Shown in pieces: positions 24,383-32,339 of a DNA stretch of 35,198 nt (positions within the stretch are counted from its first letter, which is position 1; each line of letters opens with the position of its first letter). The notes under the pieces are model-generated. The model saw nothing but the letters and a program-made list of their open reading frames with translations. It had not been told where the DNA came from and ran no database searches. A program made the position numbers and the translations under genes. This stretch comes from Verrucomicrobiota bacterium (GTDB lineage: Bacteria; Verrucomicrobiota; Verrucomicrobiia; Chthoniobacterales; JAFAMB01). Location: NCBI GenBank assembly GCA_019233825.1, contig JAFAMB010000019.1:1-35198 (forward strand). Reading direction: 5' to 3'.

Positions 24383-25144
24383 GTGTACCGCATATTTTTG
24401 TTTGTAGGTGCCCTTGTTGTCTCGAGCCCTGGGGCGTGGTGCAAGCCGTTCAACTTCCAAACCGATACATTCGCCTTCGCGAACCAGACCTACTTTGATT
24501 ACAAGCCAGTTTCGGACACCGAGATAAAAATCAGTCGAAGGAAAGGATACCTGGCTGACTATTCCCGCCACTGCTTCCAGTTGTGCCGGGCGGTGCTCCA
24601 ATTTCACCAGTTCGCGGAATTTCGTCCCGATCTTCCGAAGGTTACTGAGTCGGACTATCAGCAACTGGTGCGCAGAGTGAGCAAGCTTCCGGCCTGGAGT
24701 TCTGGTCCACGAGAAAAAGTGGTTGTTCCCGGCTATAAGGATCTGCACAGCTTTTCCCTAGAGCATAGCCTGACGCTGGAAAAGAATCTCGGTGTCTGGT
24801 GGCCGTCCTTTTGGAGAATCGGCAACTGGCGCATCGTTTTTCCGGCCCCGCGATCCGGGCAGGAACGCGTGGCAAACTGGTTGCGAGGTGAACTGGATGC
24901 GGGTCGCCTCAGAGCCGTTCACATTACCCGCTTTAAACCTATCAACCACTGCCTTATACCCTACCACTATACTCCGGAGCCAAACGGTGATCTGGTTTTT
25001 GACGTTTACGATGCCAACCAACCCGGAAAACTTGTGCACCTGACCTATCGCGCATCGGCGCGCAGCTTTTATCTGGATAAGACCTGGTATTACAGCCGCG
25101 GCCTTGTCACCGTTCTGCGACTTTATCTGTCGCCCTTATTCTGA
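24383..25144 (+). CDS. Putative secreted protein of unknown function, possibly papain-like fold
   Basis: GTG start, signal peptide YRIFLFVGALVVSSPGAWC; NHCLIPYHYTPEPNGDLVFDVYDANQPGK resembles the His-to-Asp strand region of papain-like proteins. Confidence 0.55.
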   Translation: MYRIFLFVGALVVSSPGAWCKPFNFQTDTFAFANQTYFDYKPVSDTEIKISRRKGYLADYSRHCFQLCRAVLQFHQFAEFRPDLPKVTESDYQQLVRRVSKLPAWSSGPREKVVVPGYKDLHSFSLEHSLTLEKNLGVWWPSFWRIGNWRIVFPAPRSGQERVANWLRGELDAGRLRAVHITRFKPINHCLIPYHYTPEPNGDLVFDVYDANQPGKLVHLTYRASARSFYLDKTWYYSRGLVTVLRLYLSPLF

Positions 25145-25297: not shown

Positions 25298-27103
25298 ATG
25301 CCATTCCTCCATTGGTTCAGGAAAAAGTCCAGGAGCACAGAGGCCGAAGCCAAGGCTTCCAGCGTTGAGAAATGGAGGCCGGAAGTGACCACCGTCACAG
25401 AAGCGGCGTCCGAAAATTCGGAACAAGCAGGTGTCCCTGACACACCGTCTATCGAGCAGCAACCGATCGGCACACCAGTCCCTGCGACTGCCCCTCCGGA
25501 GCTGCAGACGAGCTCAACGGCGGAACCGGCGTCGACTCCGCATCTTTCCGTTCCGCTTGGAGCCTTTTACGAAAAGCTGCCGCCGCCTCTGCTTGCACCA
25601 ATAAGACCGGACTTAAAGCGACTAATCGAGATCGCCATAGATGATCTTGTCATTGACCAAACGGCCCAAGAGGCGACGGTTCCTCTTTCAATTCTGAGCC
25701 TGTCTTGTCCTGATATTTTCGTGCGCCCGGTTGCTCTGTCCGATGAGATCCCAATAACTTTTTCTTTGAGCGGCTCGGTGCCGATTTCAGCCGTGGAGTC
25801 ACCGCCGCCACCGGAGGCGCAGCCACTGAGGACTGCCGCTGAAGCGCCAGAGTCTGGAAGCCCGGTAGTTCCCGCCGACACGCAGCCGGAACATGCAGAA
25901 AAAACGGACGAGTCTCTCCTGATCAAAGAGCAGCTCACCAAGAGCGCACCCGAGACCGGCTCAGGTCAAATAGAGAGCGGCGAACGGCACTGGGCGCCAA
26001 CAGTCAGAGCGACAACTGCCAGCGGCAAAATTAAGCTTCGCGATGTAACCGTACCTACAGATGAGCTCATTCGGCTCCGAGAGTCCGAAGCAGGTGCCAA
26101 ACCCTCGGCTTCCGTGATTGGCGAAACGGAATTCAGCGGCCGTGCCGCCAGCGCGGAAAAGGGAATCAGCCTCCGGCTCCAGTCCGTTCTCTCCAATTTT
26201 CCACCTGGTCTCGAACGACCTTCGATCCAGGCGCTGAGCGGCACACAGACTGAAATTGTTTTGCCTCTGGACCTGATTCAATCGCAACTGGCTCAAGGCC
26301 GGGTTGTTGTTCCCGCGGCGACGTTCTGCAAGGCGTTGCCAAACGATTTGAAACCGTATTTTGAAACCATTGAACCTGGCGCAGAGATTCCGATCCCGTT
26401 GCGCGAGATCTTTTTGGGTCTTCCGCAAGAGGCAATCAAGCTGAGAGAAGATCAAGAGATCGATCATCCTCAGGAGACAATTCAGACCCCGTTCAGCGCA
26501 CAGGCCGAAGAAGATGCCAAGCGTTTTGGTCTGCACACACCAGCGGCAACCGCACCGGTACCAGATCAGGAAGAGAAGCCCGCGCCGGCCGAGGTTTCCA
26601 AAACGGTTTCGGCCGGCGGATTGCATGCGGACGCCGGTGAGCAGGAGGTTTCATCTCCGCCCTCACCTGTTACGCCGGAAGCTCAGGTCAAAGTCGACTC
26701 GGAAAGGCTGCAGGCGATATTCTTGACAGACGAGACCTTGGATTTACCCAAAACCATCAGAAAGGTGGGTGAATTGCCCGGTCTTCGATCGTGCCTCCTG
26801 AACACCACGGACGGGCTTAAACTCGCGGGAAGCCTCGATGTTCCAGGCCAGGAACAAGCGGTCTCAGTTCTGGTGCCCGAATTGTTCGAGCAGGCGCGAG
26901 CGAAGTTGGCAGACATGCATCTTGGGGCTTTGGAGACGATCACCTTATATTGCGGCAGGGATCAATTGAGTACATTTCTGCAGGGAAACCTTTGTTTGAC
27001 CGTTCTCCACGACAACCGCCCATTCAAGCCGGGCGTACGGGAAAAGGTGCAAGCAGTGATCAACGAGCTTGTGCCTCTCAGCGGATCCGAAAAGGAGCTA
27101 TAG
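25298..27103 (+). CDS. Roadblock/LC7 (MglB-like) C-terminal domain fused to a long Pro/Glu-rich N-terminal region with duplicated motifs
   Basis: 601 aa. C-terminal LQAIFLTDETLDLPKTIRKVGELPGLRSCLLNTTDGLKLAGSLDVPGQEQAVSVLVPELFEQARAKLADMHLGALETITLYCGRDQLSTFLQG fits Roadblock; located 9 bp upstream of an MglA-like gene. Confidence 0.65.
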   Translation: MPFLHWFRKKSRSTEAEAKASSVEKWRPEVTTVTEAASENSEQAGVPDTPSIEQQPIGTPVPATAPPELQTSSTAEPASTPHLSVPLGAFYEKLPPPLLAPIRPDLKRLIEIAIDDLVIDQTAQEATVPLSILSLSCPDIFVRPVALSDEIPITFSLSGSVPISAVESPPPPEAQPLRTAAEAPESGSPVVPADTQPEHAEKTDESLLIKEQLTKSAPETGSGQIESGERHWAPTVRATTASGKIKLRDVTVPTDELIRLRESEAGAKPSASVIGETEFSGRAASAEKGISLRLQSVLSNFPPGLERPSIQALSGTQTEIVLPLDLIQSQLAQGRVVVPAATFCKALPNDLKPYFETIEPGAEIPIPLREIFLGLPQEAIKLREDQEIDHPQETIQTPFSAQAEEDAKRFGLHTPAATAPVPDQEEKPAPAEVSKTVSAGGLHADAGEQEVSSPPSPVTPEAQVKVDSERLQAIFLTDETLDLPKTIRKVGELPGLRSCLLNTTDGLKLAGSLDVPGQEQAVSVLVPELFEQARAKLADMHLGALETITLYCGRDQLSTFLQGNLCLTVLHDNRPFKPGVREKVQAVINELVPLSGSEKEL

Positions 27104-27112
27104 GACGACCCA

Positions 27113-27754
27113 ATGCCGACCATCAACTACGCCAGCAAGGAGATCCAATTCAAGATCGTGTACTACGGCGCCGCGCTCTGTGGAAAGACCACCAACCTGG
27201 TGTACATCCATTCCCGAATCGCGCCCGCATACAGAGGCGATCTGGTGTCGCTCGCAACGGCGGCGGATCGCACATTGTTTTTTGATTTTCTGCCTTTGAG
27301 CGCTGTCGTACTCCAAGGGTTCAAAACCAAATTCCAGCTGTATACCGTCCCTGGACAGGTCATCTACAACGCCACCCGGCAACTCGTGTTGCGGAACGTC
27401 GACGGGGTTGTGTTCGTGGCGGACTCTCAGTGGGATAAGATGGAAGAAAACGTTGAGAGCTTTCGCAATCTTGAGCAAAACCTCCAGAAGCAAAGCCTTT
27501 CGCTTGATGTGGTTCCGTACGTCCTGCAGTTAAACAAGCGAGACCTTCAAGATGTGGCTCCGACAAACTACCTCCAGTACCTGCTAAACAACCGGAAAAG
27601 GCGGGTGCAAAGTTTCGAATCGATAGCCAGCATCGGTGTAAATGTCTTTTCTACGTTGGACGCGGTCACCCAGCTGCTGTTACACAAGTTTAACCGGGAA
27701 CGAGGGAAGCTCCTCGCGGGACCTGGAGGTGGGGGTGCGGTTAGAGACCGCTGA
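27113..27754 (+). CDS. MglA-like small Ras-superfamily GTPase
   Basis: FKIVYYGAALCGKTTNLVYIH (P-loop), LYTVPGQVIYNATRQLVLRNVDGVVFVADSQ, LQLNKRDL (NKRD). Confidence 0.92.
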   Translation: MPTINYASKEIQFKIVYYGAALCGKTTNLVYIHSRIAPAYRGDLVSLATAADRTLFFDFLPLSAVVLQGFKTKFQLYTVPGQVIYNATRQLVLRNVDGVVFVADSQWDKMEENVESFRNLEQNLQKQSLSLDVVPYVLQLNKRDLQDVAPTNYLQYLLNNRKRRVQSFESIASIGVNVFSTLDAVTQLLLHKFNRERGKLLAGPGGGGAVRDR

Positions 27755-27823
27755 TAGGAAAACGCCGGGAACGCTCACTGACACTCTCTTGCAGGCCGCT
27801 CGATGCTCATCTATTAGTTCCCG

Positions 27824-28489
27824 ATGATCGACTACATGCAAAAAGGGGGGCCACTGATGTGGCTCATCCTGGTTTGTAGCGTTGTTTCCATCGCGGTCTT
27901 TGCCGAGCGGCTGCTTTACTTTCATCGTGCAACCATTAACCTGGGCGAATTTCTGCAGGGTCTATCCAATTTAATCAGGAGGCGAAACCTGGCGGAAGCG
28001 CGCGTTGAATGCCAGGCAACGTCCGTGCCCGTTACTAGAGTTATCCACGCGGCGCTCATCCGACACCGTCTGCCGCGAACGGAACTCCGGGAGATTGTTA
28101 AGGAGGCCGGGCAGTTGGAGGTTCCTCGGCTAGAGCACAATCTCGGCGTTCTCGTTGCCATCAGCTACATCTGCCCGCTCATCGGGTTACTTGGCACAGT
28201 CACTGGGCTGATTCAGACATTCGTACAATTGTCTGCAAATAACGGTTACGCGACTCTGGCGGACGTTTCGGGAGGTGTCTACCAGAGTTTGTTGACCACT
28301 GCCGCCGGCCTGGTCGTGGCGATTCCAACCATCCTCGCTTATAGCCACCTCTCCGCGCGCCTGAACGCTTTGATTCACGACATGGAACGAGCCGGCATCG
28401 AAGTAGTTAATCTGCTTTCCGAGAGCGAAATCGATTCATCCATTATTGAATTCGCTTCGGAGTCACCGGCGGCCAGAGAGCATCGATGA
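27824..28489 (+). CDS. MotA/TolQ/ExbB proton channel family protein
   Basis: GGPLMWLILVCSVVSIAVFAERLLYFHR; ISYICPLIGLLGTVTGLIQTF; VYQSLLTTAAGLVVAIPTILAYSHL. Confidence 0.93.
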   Translation: MIDYMQKGGPLMWLILVCSVVSIAVFAERLLYFHRATINLGEFLQGLSNLIRRRNLAEARVECQATSVPVTRVIHAALIRHRLPRTELREIVKEAGQLEVPRLEHNLGVLVAISYICPLIGLLGTVTGLIQTFVQLSANNGYATLADVSGGVYQSLLTTAAGLVVAIPTILAYSHLSARLNALIHDMERAGIEVVNLLSESEIDSSIIEFASESPAAREHR

Positions 28490-28887
28490 AACTGACCAGA
28501 TCTATCCACCTTAATCCTTTCCTGATCTTCATCATTCCGTTGGTGGATCTTTTTTTCCTGCTGCTGCTGCTTTTTCTCGTCAGCTCCACCTTTCTGCTCC
28601 ATCCCGGAATCAGCGTGAATCTCCCCTTCTCCAAGTTCACGCTCGGACCGCAAAACAATCCGGTGATTGTTAGCATTACAGCCGGCCCTTTTCCGCTGAT
28701 CTACTATCGAGATCAACAGATAAGTCCGGAGGAGCTCGCACGTCGGTTGGCAGAGGATCATGCCGCGGATCGATCGATTATAATCCAGGCTGATCGTCTA
28801 ACTCCCCAAGGATCTGTCATCGAAGTGATGAATCTTTGCCTCGAAAAGGGTTATTCGGTCGTACTTGCAACGTCGCCACAAAAATGA
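28486..28887 (+). CDS. ExbD/TolR family biopolymer transport protein
   Basis: Single TM with conserved Asp (IIPLVDLFFLLLLLFLVSS); ATGA overlap with the ExbB-like gene. Confidence 0.85.
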   Translation: MKLTRSIHLNPFLIFIIPLVDLFFLLLLLFLVSSTFLLHPGISVNLPFSKFTLGPQNNPVIVSITAGPFPLIYYRDQQISPEELARRLAEDHAADRSIIIQADRLTPQGSVIEVMNLCLEKGYSVVLATSPQK

Positions 28888-29606
28888 GTCAGCAGGAAGC
28901 GTGCTTTATCTTCGATTGGCGAAGAAGCCGATGGGATTATAGACTGCCTCTGCTGATCGCACTCTCACTCTTCGGGCACGTCTTCTGTTTTTATATTTTC
29001 CACGTGGTCTATCCGACGACCACAACGCTCCTTCCACCCTCAGCACAAGTGACGGTGCTGGATCCGAACAATCCGCAGGATAGAAACTTGCTGGATTGGG
29101 TCGAAATGAACAATCCGGCAAACGTCAGCGCACCCAGGTTCAATCCGCGTCTGGTTGCGCAATTGACGCCGCGGTACAAGCCCATTTTTTCCAGCCTCTC
29201 GGTTGAGTTGAAAACCTCAGATTCTTCCGGGACGCGAGAGCAGGCCATCCCATCGATTTTCTCCCCCGAGGCGCTTCTGCCAATGCGGTCGCGACCGGCG
29301 CAAGCGGCTCCCACGAAAATGTTCTCCAGCCGACTGGAGATCGCTTCAACTCTACAAGCGCGCGCGCCGGTTTCCCTGCCGGCGTTACCGGCGGCTGTCA
29401 CGCTTTCGGAGCCCACCTCACTTTTTATTGGCGTTGATCCTGACGGAGAAGTCGATTTTGTTTTTCTACGCCAATCGAGCGGAATTGGTCAACTTGATCA
29501 GAAAGCAGAGGAATTCATTCGAACGGTAAAATTCAAGCCGGAACCGCGCAGAGATTGGGGAGTGATTACGTTGCACTGGGGAGGGACCGGCCGTGATTCG
29601 CGTTGA
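28884..29606 (+). CDS. TonB-like energy transducer
   Basis: N-terminal TM (LPLLIALSLFGHVFCFYIFHVV), Pro-rich linker, C-terminal TonB-like SLFIGVDPDGEVDFVFLRQSSGIGQLDQKAEEFIRTVKFKPEPRRDWGVITLHW; ATGA overlap with the ExbD-like gene. Confidence 0.75.
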   Translation: MSQQEACFIFDWRRSRWDYRLPLLIALSLFGHVFCFYIFHVVYPTTTTLLPPSAQVTVLDPNNPQDRNLLDWVEMNNPANVSAPRFNPRLVAQLTPRYKPIFSSLSVELKTSDSSGTREQAIPSIFSPEALLPMRSRPAQAAPTKMFSSRLEIASTLQARAPVSLPALPAAVTLSEPTSLFIGVDPDGEVDFVFLRQSSGIGQLDQKAEEFIRTVKFKPEPRRDWGVITLHWGGTGRDSR

Positions 29607-29832
29607 GCTGCCGGTGCTGGTTTTCATCTATCTCTTCGTTTTCCTTGCCGCGGTCTTTTCGCTTTGGATTGCGTACGAGTGGCTCCGTGTACGCCGCGAG
29701 AAAGAGACCTTGCGTTACCGGGTTCAATGCACCATTTGTGCCTCTATTTTCGAAGATAAAACCAACACTCTGCTGCCGCGATGCCCTCGCTGCGGCAGTT
29801 TGAACGAGAGATTTAGAATTGGAGGACTCTAA
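29593..29832 (+). CDS. Small membrane-anchored zinc-ribbon protein
   Basis: GTG start; one TM (LVFIYLFVFLAAVFSLWIAYEWL) then CTIC...CPRC; overlaps the preceding gene by 14 bp. Confidence 0.7.
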   Translation: MIRVELPVLVFIYLFVFLAAVFSLWIAYEWLRVRREKETLRYRVQCTICASIFEDKTNTLLPRCPRCGSLNERFRIGGL

Positions 29833-29836
29833 CCTT

Positions 29837-31021
29837 ATGGCCATGTTCATCGGGCGAAATCGAAAGGCCCGGACAACCTACGGTTTCGACGAAATCGCTC
29901 TGGTTCCCGGCACGGTGACCATCAATCCGAACGAAGTTGATATCGCATTCAGCTTGCCGCGCAAAGATGCGGAGCCACTCAGACTCGCGATTCCGATTCT
30001 GGCCAGCGCGATGGACGGAGTCGTTGACGTGCCTTTCGCGATTGAGATGGGTAGACTGGGCGGACTAGCGGTATTGAACCTCGAGGGGGTCCAAACCCGA
30101 TACAAAAACCCGGCGGAGGTCCTTTTGACCGTCTTGGAAGCAGACAAGGAACGGGTGACGGGTCTCCTGCAAAAAATCTACCAGGAACCGGTCCGGGAAG
30201 ATTTGATTGCCGCACGCATTAGGGAGATCAAGGACGCCGGTGTCATCGCCGCGGTCAGTTCGATCCCGCAAAAGGCGGAGCGCTATGGACGTATCGCTCA
30301 GGAGGCAGGCGTTGATGTGTTTGTCGTCCAGAGCACCGTCTCTACTGTCCGGCATATTTCGACCGAATACAAATCACTCGACCTCAAGGACTTTTGCCAA
30401 GAGATGAAGTGCCCGGTGATTGTCGGTAACACCGTCGGCTATGATGTGACCCTGGAAATCATCGAATGCGGTGTGGCGGGGGCGCTCATCGGTGTGGGAC
30501 CTGGCGCTGCCTGTACCTCCCGCGGTGTCCTGGGTCTGGGTGTACCGCAAGTAACCGCCACGATCGACTGTGCGGCCGCACGCGATCACCACTACAAGAA
30601 GACGGGTTGCTATGTACCGATTATCACGGACGGCGGAATGAGCAACGGAGGCGACGTTTGCAAGGCCTTCGCTTGCGGCGCGGATGCGGTCATGATCGGC
30701 AGCGCGTTCGCGAAAGCCATCGAAGCGCCCGGGAGGGGATACCACTGGGGGATGGCAACACCCCACGCCAATCTGCCACGGGGTACACGTATCCGGGTCG
30801 GAACGACTGGCCCGCTGCGGCAGATCCTTTTCGGCCCGGCAGATGTTGATGATGGAAGTCAGAATCTCGTGGGAGCGATTACGACCTGCATGGGCAACGT
30901 CGGTGCTGCTAATCTTCGTGAGTTCCAGGAAACGGAAATCATTATCGCACCCTCGATTCGAACCGAAGGAAAACTCTTCCAGCAAGTACAAATGGTAGGG
31001 ATGGGCTCCAGGAACTCTTGA
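29837..31021 (+). CDS. IMP dehydrogenase-related protein (GuaB3-like, no CBS domains)
   Basis: ILASAMDGVVDVPFAIEMGRLGGLAVLNLEG, GALIGVGPGAACTSRGVLGLGVPQVTA, PIITDGGMSNGGDVCKAFACGADAVMIGSAFA. ggaggactctaaccttATG gives a good ribosome-binding site. Confidence 0.88.
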   Translation: MAMFIGRNRKARTTYGFDEIALVPGTVTINPNEVDIAFSLPRKDAEPLRLAIPILASAMDGVVDVPFAIEMGRLGGLAVLNLEGVQTRYKNPAEVLLTVLEADKERVTGLLQKIYQEPVREDLIAARIREIKDAGVIAAVSSIPQKAERYGRIAQEAGVDVFVVQSTVSTVRHISTEYKSLDLKDFCQEMKCPVIVGNTVGYDVTLEIIECGVAGALIGVGPGAACTSRGVLGLGVPQVTATIDCAAARDHHYKKTGCYVPIITDGGMSNGGDVCKAFACGADAVMIGSAFAKAIEAPGRGYHWGMATPHANLPRGTRIRVGTTGPLRQILFGPADVDDGSQNLVGAITTCMGNVGAANLREFQETEIIIAPSIRTEGKLFQQVQMVGMGSRNS

Positions 31022-31091
31022 CTCCCGATTTGATGATTAGATTTCTGTTGCTTAACCGAAGATTGCAGTCTAACGCCGTATCACAGTGCTC

Positions 31092-32339
31092 ATGAGCAAC
31101 CGACGAGTCGTTATAACCGGTATTGGAGTGGTATCCCCCCTCGGAAGCGATCTGAAATCGTTTTGGGAAAATTTGGTGAACGGCAAGAGCGGCGTTCGCC
31201 GGATTACCCAGTTCGATGCTTCTACCTTTGACTGCCAAATTGCGGGTGAGGTCATGGATTTCAATCCGTCGTTGTATTTCAAGAATCCTAAGGACGTCCG
31301 GCGCGCTGATCGATTCTCACAATTCGCAATGGCATCAGCTAAACTAGCGCTCGAAGACAGCGGGCTGGACCTGGAGAAAGTCGATCGCAGCCGATTCGGT
31401 GTGCTCGTGGGAAGCGGCATCGGGGGTCTTAAGACTCTCGAAGATCAACACACAGTTCTCATGAACAAGGGTGCTTCCCGAGTCTCTCCATTCATGGTTC
31501 CGATGATGATCGTAAACATGGCGAGCGGCCTGATCTCTATGGAGTACGGCCTCGAGGGACCCAATTTCTCAATCGTAACCGCCTGCGCCACAGCGGCTAA
31601 CTCGATTGGAGAAGCCTGGCGGATGATCCGATACGGGGACGCGGACATCTTTCTGGCGGGTGGATCGGAAGCCGTCATTTCCCGGCTGGGGATAGCCGGC
31701 TTTTGCTCGATGCGGGCGATGAGCACCCGGAATGACGAACCCGAGAAAGCATCGCGCCCCTTCGATCGCGATCGGGATGGATTCGTGATGGGCGAGGGCG
31801 CTGGAATTCTTGTTCTTGAGGAATACGAAATAGCGAAGGCGCGCGGTGCGCAAATCTATTGCGAACTGGCCGGATATGGTCTTACCGCAGACGCTTATCA
31901 TATGACCGCCCCGCGACCGGACGGCAAAACCGTGGCTCGCGCAATGCGGTTAGCCTTGGAATACGCCGGCGCGAACGTGACTGAGGTGGACTACATCAAC
32001 GCGCACGCAACTTCTACGGGTGTCGGAGATATTTGCGAGAGCAACGCGGTCAAGCTGCTGGCGGGCGACTATGCAAAGAACGGCCTTCTGGTGAGTTCCA
32101 CGAAGTCTATGACCGGGCATTTGCTCGGGGGTGCCGGAGGCGTGGAAAGTGCCGTCTGCGTCCTCACAATCAAACACGGAGTCGTTCCGCCAACGATCAA
32201 TTTGGACAATCCGGATCCGGAATGCGATCTCGACTATGTTCCAAAAGTGGCGCGAGAAAAAGGCGTTGGCCTGGCGCTGAATAACTCCTTTGGATTTGGC
32301 GGACATAATGCAACGCTGGCGTTCCGCGCGTTGCGTTAG
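31092..32339 (+). CDS. fabF: 3-oxoacyl-[ACP] synthase II
   Basis: RRVVITGIGVVSPLG; active-site FSIVTACATAANSIGEAW; INAHATSTGVGD; SSTKSMTGHLLGGAGGVES; NNSFGFGGHNATLAF. Confidence 0.96.
   Translation: MSNRRVVITGIGVVSPLGSDLKSFWENLVNGKSGVRRITQFDASTFDCQIAGEVMDFNPSLYFKNPKDVRRADRFSQFAMASAKLALEDSGLDLEKVDRSRFGVLVGSGIGGLKTLEDQHTVLMNKGASRVSPFMVPMMIVNMASGLISMEYGLEGPNFSIVTACATAANSIGEAWRMIRYGDADIFLAGGSEAVISRLGIAGFCSMRAMSTRNDEPEKASRPFDRDRDGFVMGEGAGILVLEEYEIAKARGAQIYCELAGYGLTADAYHMTAPRPDGKTVARAMRLALEYAGANVTEVDYINAHATSTGVGDICESNAVKLLAGDYAKNGLLVSSTKSMTGHLLGGAGGVESAVCVLTIKHGVVPPTINLDNPDPECDLDYVPKVAREKGVGLALNNSFGFGGHNATLAFRALR

Follow-up and report, generated by a model that had tools for sequence, protein, structure and literature searches.

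The window analysed here is a stretch of 35,198 nucleotides (contig JAFAMB010000019.1) from a 71%-complete metagenome assembly of a Verrucomicrobiota bacterium. Six genes at positions 25298-29832, all on the plus strand, encode in this order a long roadblock protein (ROBL1), an MglA-type GTPase, an ExbB/TolQ-like channel subunit, an ExbD/TolR-like subunit, a TonB-like protein and a small zinc-ribbon protein (ZnR). The genes were confirmed at these coordinates, and their spacings, two gaps of 9 and 69 base pairs (bp) followed by overlaps of 4, 4 and 14 bp, are those given in an original prediction for this DNA. The six-gene cassette described there is real, but the unit extends past ZnR into a GuaB3-family gene and then a FabF-like gene. 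We infer that the genes are co-transcribed; a promoter and terminator scan of the gene set gave no signal above shuffled expectation to split or join them. The set splits into two modules: module A comprises ROBL1 and MglA, and module B comprises ExbB, ExbD, TonB and ZnR, usually followed by GuaB3 and FabF. The order-level comparison set consisted of 57 relatives, and those bearing names are soil Verrucomicrobiota/Chthoniobacterales. Family codes (f1, f4 etc.) were assigned by the search tool, f1 being the uncultured family of the window, with 11 genomes (G000-G010).

In ROBL1 (25298..27103, plus strand; 601 amino acids, aa), disordered proline-rich sequence surrounds two small beta-alpha domains (at about residues 81-166 and at 287-411), and the C terminus is a roadblock domain of about 140 aa (about residues 460-595; 26675..27082, plus strand), which contains a PGVREK motif. 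The AlphaFold model has a low overall pLDDT (61), with the individual domains well predicted. The roadblock domain matched roadblock 3kye (TMt 0.81) and MglB 6izw (TMt 0.72) in Foldseek, and a profile search against PDB roadblocks gave an E value of 4e-12. By profile and fold searches, ROBL1 belongs to the roadblock superfamily, near MglB. The original prediction of a roadblock protein thus agrees with fold and profile, but it applies only to the last ~140 of the 601 aa, and the Pfam roadblock match is below threshold (E 0.1).

The second gene (27113..27754, plus strand) encodes a 213-aa GTPase whose best PDB matches are MglA of Myxococcus xanthus and Thermus thermophilus (E 1e-60 to 1e-64). 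The protein is homologous to solved MglA over its full length and has R53 and TVPGQ82 in addition to the P-loop and NKRD motif already noticed in the original prediction. Its catalytic residues are conserved in 26 of 26 aligned Chthoniobacterales sequences, and identity inside f1 is 73-100%. The position of Ras G12 (residue 21) is Ala in the window and in the same 26 sequences. Verrucomicrobial MglA has Ala (or Pro) for M. xanthus Gly21 in 72 of 79 rows scoring at least 300 bits, Ala being found alongside MglB as well; Myxococcota and Acidobacteriota rows have Gly. We do not regard the missing glycine as disqualifying the protein as an MglA, because MglA of Bdellovibrio bacteriovorus also has a residue other than Gly there (S21 there, A21 here) (PMC3983030). 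Judged by its sequence, the window GTPase is a bona fide MglA. Ala21 has a predicted effect on GTP hydrolysis. Verrucomicrobia are listed with group 5 MglA in the survey by Wuichet and Sogaard-Andersen (2014); its MglA groups, as here, have roadblock partners, the neighbourhoods of groups 1, 4 and 5 are variable, and TolQ is unmentioned in the text (PMC4316618).

Linkage of the two modules across the order

An ExbB orthologue of module B was found in 54 of the 57 relatives (47-100% identity). MglA orthologues were found in 29 (57-100% identity), all of which also have ExbB. MglA and ExbB lie on one contig in a conserved orientation in 20 of these 29 genomes, being collinear in ten f1 and five f4 genomes and convergent in five f8 genomes. 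The distance between the two genes is 69-401 bp in f1, the window having the shortest, and 630-2912 bp in f4. RpoN, NtrC, peptidase S11 and EPSP synthase, the other neighbours in the window, do not accompany these genes in f4 or f8, and the adjacency of modules A and B is therefore above background. An order unique to this genome had been named in the original prediction as a ground for rejecting it; the order is not unique, and the linkage is conserved across several families. The link between MglA and the ExbB cassette is real and old.

A single ROBL1 copy adjoins MglA at every MglA-orthologue locus seen. In eight genomes without MglA (f6 and f13), ROBL1 precedes ExbB by 12-79 bp, and in a ninth case (G032, f7) it adjoins ExbB beside a masked stretch. 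Similarity searches indicated that the MglA orthologue is gone from these f6, f7 and f13 genomes, absence being scored at E 1e-3 for G015, G039, G047, G049 and G052 and at 1e-50 for G156, G172 and G217. The PGVREK motif is common to the window ROBL1 and ROBL1 of the MglA-less relatives. The roadblock link to ExbB outlasts the GTPase. Two further genomes, G042 and G024, have ROBL1 but no MglA, and in both the ROBL1 gene lies apart from ExbB (loci L212 and L213). A 24,088-codon "giant" frame with the ROBL1 domain in G032 was rejected because it arose from 72,000 masked N.

Tentatively, we favour the reading that an envelope complex of ExbB, ExbD, TonB and ZnR is positioned or gated by ROBL1, together with MglA in the genomes that have it. 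Several observations weigh against it. Module B is present without an MglA orthologue in 25 genomes. The two modules are on opposite strands (convergent) in f8 and on different contigs in G012, G014, G019, G020, G023, G045 and G056, and outside the order, at class level, no contig with both was found among some 42 genomes with MglA, locus L162 being the exception. A further MglA of the window's genome, only distantly related (38% identity), has two roadblock-like genes in its vicinity (L067, G000:C47, 5808-8555), and this cluster could supply partners. In genomes that have lost MglA, ROBL1 may also be no more than a relic.

It is almost as likely that the modules are old neighbours with no functional tie. 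Modules A and B would then have been brought together in an ancestor and have stayed adjacent through slow rearrangement. MglA and ROBL1 would serve clients of another kind (polarity, cytoskeleton), and the ExbB cassette would be an envelope system in its own right. The genomes with module B but no MglA, the seven assemblies with A and B apart and the opposite strands in f8 all fit this explanation; the adjacency kept in f4 and f8, where the other window neighbours are not, and the ROBL1-ExbB pairing that persists after MglA loss in three families argue against it. The short distance to ExbB and the conserved PGVREK motif in the eight MglA-less genomes would also suit a role for ROBL1 alone in regulating or assembling the cassette, MglA being a separate passenger that ROBL1 also binds and that exerts no control on the cassette. 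This appears quite unlikely, as ROBL1 remains with MglA wherever A and B are apart and module B is found without adjacent ROBL1 in several families (f2, f9, f12).

Loss of MglB and of pilus markers in f1

The 69-bp spacer between MglA and ExbB (27755..27823, plus strand) is the position of mglB in f4 relatives. The f4 interval encodes a second roadblock protein (ROBL2), above the Pfam cut-off. A profile built from f4 ROBL2 finds the MglB encoded ahead of MglA in Archangium, Sorangium and acidobacteria, and ROBL2 is therefore of the MglB type. Using an MglB profile, MglB was detected following MglA in each of the 18 non-f1 genomes that have an MglA orthologue, but in no f1 genome (0 of 11); the MglA-ExbB spacers of f1 gave no significant match to an mglB remnant. 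It is this loss of MglB that leaves the 69-bp gap of the window, a point overlooked in the original prediction. In one f4 genome, a 700-aa protein without a Pfam match lies between MglB and ExbB (L040, 3247-5346).

PilM was not found in the 11 f1 genomes (only partial matches of about 45 bits), nor was PilT above the curated cut-off. PilT was found in the 18 MglB genomes, and f1 is unlike most of the order in PilM and PilT. A type IV pilus as the client of f1 MglA was considered and rejected, given the lack of PilM and the below-cut-off PilT in all f1 genomes. MglA is thus retained in f1 without its usual GTPase-activating protein (GAP), MglB, and without two type IV pilus marker genes; since it survives with its catalytic residues intact, another client nearby is favoured. 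Bdellovibrio provides a precedent, having retained MglA although mglB was lost from a locus that is conserved in other respects (PMC3983030). However, MglA there still promotes pilus formation, whereas f1 is without PilM and above-cut-off PilT (PMC3983030).

The proton-carrying residue of ExbD

ExbB (27824..28489, plus strand) passes Pfam MotA_ExbB (PF01618; 97.6 bits, E 6e-28), and its nearest solved relatives are TolQ. The original prediction held that the TolQ-type transmembrane segments TM2 and TM3 are kept. The Thr residues of TM2 and TM3 are indeed conserved in the window, but the TM3 Glu of most TolQ/ExbB is Gln; the TM3 Thr is lost throughout f7 and f12 and from most rows of f13. ExbD (28486..28887, plus strand) passes Pfam ExbD (PF02472; 64 bits, E 2e-17), and the TM aspartate claimed for it is Asp21 (codon 28546..28548, plus strand). 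This residue aligns with TolR D23, and the equivalent Asp is described as essential in TolR and conserved across related stators (PMC8928145, PMC12204202).

The 61 cassette orthologues have at this position D 23, N 15, T 6, G 5, S 5, E 3, Q 2, C 1 and A 1; the loss of the acid in 35 of them was overlooked in the original prediction. By comparison, all 32 paralogous ExbB-ExbD pairs, taken from related genomes that in many cases are those of the cassette set, have the ExbD Asp (Fisher p = 2e-10, not corrected for relatedness). The acid is kept in f1, mostly as Asp and as Glu in three (one genus), and f8 keeps Asp21. The Asp is lost in seven of seven f4 genomes, in five of which MglA still adjoins the cassette; therefore, barring a substitute residue, a conserved proton motor is not the common function of the linked genes. 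Inspection by eye of the ExbB/ExbD TM segments found no general compensating acid. The ratio of nonsynonymous to synonymous substitution rates (dN/dS) for ExbB and ExbD of Asp-less pairs was 0.03-0.32, with dS saturated in several, and these values are consistent with purifying selection on the Asp-less genes.

The single unit of GTPase and proton motor envisaged in the original prediction is accordingly not obligatory, in view of the MglA-less module B genomes, the opposite strands in f8 and the Asp loss in f4, and on present sequence data a "GTPase-driven proton motor" is unproven. An independent-pairs test of MglA presence against ExbD acid on the ExbB tree yielded only two supported independent pairs and no usable link, which also suits neighbourliness without function. 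The minimum number of changes between acid and its loss on this tree is six. A bolder and unlikely reading is that the ExbB-ExbD-TonB lineage repeatedly gave up proton flow, through at least that many gains or losses, and would represent an envelope scaffold under the control of the roadblock protein (and MglA where present) rather than a proton motor. The window's genome has three further ExbB-ExbD pairs, found beside a TonB-like gene and peptide deformylase (L068, 7963-10333), beside a TPR protein (L069, 6567-10494) and beside a TonB/TolA-like gene with a protein kinase (L070, 7182-9399).

A putative envelope complex and its neighbours

In the reading that we favour, modules A and B would be old neighbours. 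Module B, which nearly all genomes of the order have, would form a core complex of the inner membrane with TonB as its periplasmic arm, and module A (ROBL1 and MglA, joined by MglB in most relatives) would act as an optional switch beside it. ROBL1 would be the constant cytoplasmic adaptor, contacting the ExbB/ExbD complex or the zinc ribbon of ZnR. MglA-GTP would use ROBL1 to recruit or gate the ExbB/ExbD complex at chosen envelope sites. In f1, where MglB and the type IV pilus markers are gone, MglA, ROBL1 and the acidic ExbD TM residue remain, and the complex may still be driven by protons. An analogy for such recruitment is MglA with AglR and GltJ in Myxococcus; a review lists both among the MglA effectors of M. 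xanthus (PMC12288465). If true, this would be a natural case of a Ras-like polarity GTPase that keeps a membrane-complex client after the loss of its GAP and of the pilus. A set of the ExbD orthologues is conserved despite the loss of a residue held essential for proton-driven force, which raises the questions of which functions are left to an ExbB/ExbD/TonB complex once proton transfer is gone and whether such complexes are regulated by roadblock proteins where there is no GTPase.

Like the window, the MglA-MglB and AglRQS/Glt system of M. xanthus combines a true MglA with a partner of the roadblock fold and with a channel of the TolQ/TolR class that may be its client (PMC12288465, PMC3169522). 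However, f1 is without a canonical MglB, has a long, different roadblock protein instead, and has one ExbD rather than two. A compact Agl/Glt-like gliding motor, in which MglA would control a proton channel of the TolQR type, a TonB-like protein would be the rod and the whole would be homologous to AglRQS-Glt, is highly improbable. The protein classes match, the listed effectors AglR and GltJ offer a parallel, and ExbD Asp21 is kept in f1 and f8, but the Asp is lost in f4 although MglA is adjacent, and ZnR matches none of the solved zinc ribbons specifically. The AglRQS pattern is one TolQ-like and two TolR-like subunits; the window cassette has a single ExbD, a single adjacent ExbD having been scored per cassette locus. 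With one ExbD and an ExbB nearest to TolQ, the cassette is therefore not an AglRQS member on the features compared. The mgl and agl genes of Myxococcus are not known to lie in one operon.

The cassette shares with ExbB-ExbD-TonB and TolQ-TolR-TolA the ExbB, ExbD and TonB families, the TM2/TM3 threonines, the TonB TM His and, in the window, Asp21. It differs from them in the missing ExbB TM3 Glu, the frequent loss of the ExbD Asp among its orthologues and the additional ZnR. As the original prediction said of the receptor, no TonB-dependent receptor is present among the annotated window neighbours, no genome-wide search having been made, and neither TolB nor Pal is among the annotated genes adjoining the cassette. 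The TonB-like protein (28884..29606, plus strand) has one N-terminal TM and a partial TonB C-terminal domain (TIGR01352 above cut-off; PF03544 slightly below). Its TM carries an S28xxxH32 motif, the His of which is conserved in 49 of 57 aligned relatives.

ZnR (29593..29832, plus strand; 79 aa) consists of an N-terminal TM followed by a CxxC...CxxC zinc ribbon, seen in the alignment and predicted to be cytoplasmic by the positive-inside rule. A GltJ-type zinc ribbon was considered and rejected, as ZnR gave weak generic zinc-ribbon matches only. The next gene (29837..31021, plus strand) encodes a GuaB3-family IMP dehydrogenase-related protein (TIGR01304, 436.7 bits). Its ATG at 29837 is 4 bp past ZnR; the open reading frame list gives an upstream TTG instead. 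GuaB3 orthologues are 77-92% identical, and GuaB3 is in module B of many, not all, families. The FabF-like ketoacyl synthase (31086..32339, plus strand; PF00109/PF02801) forms, by synteny, the conserved end of module B. On the other side of the gene set, between RpoN and ROBL1, a 253-aa protein without a Pfam or NCBIfam match is encoded at 24383-25144; it is conserved in f1 and lies farther away in G012 and G046.

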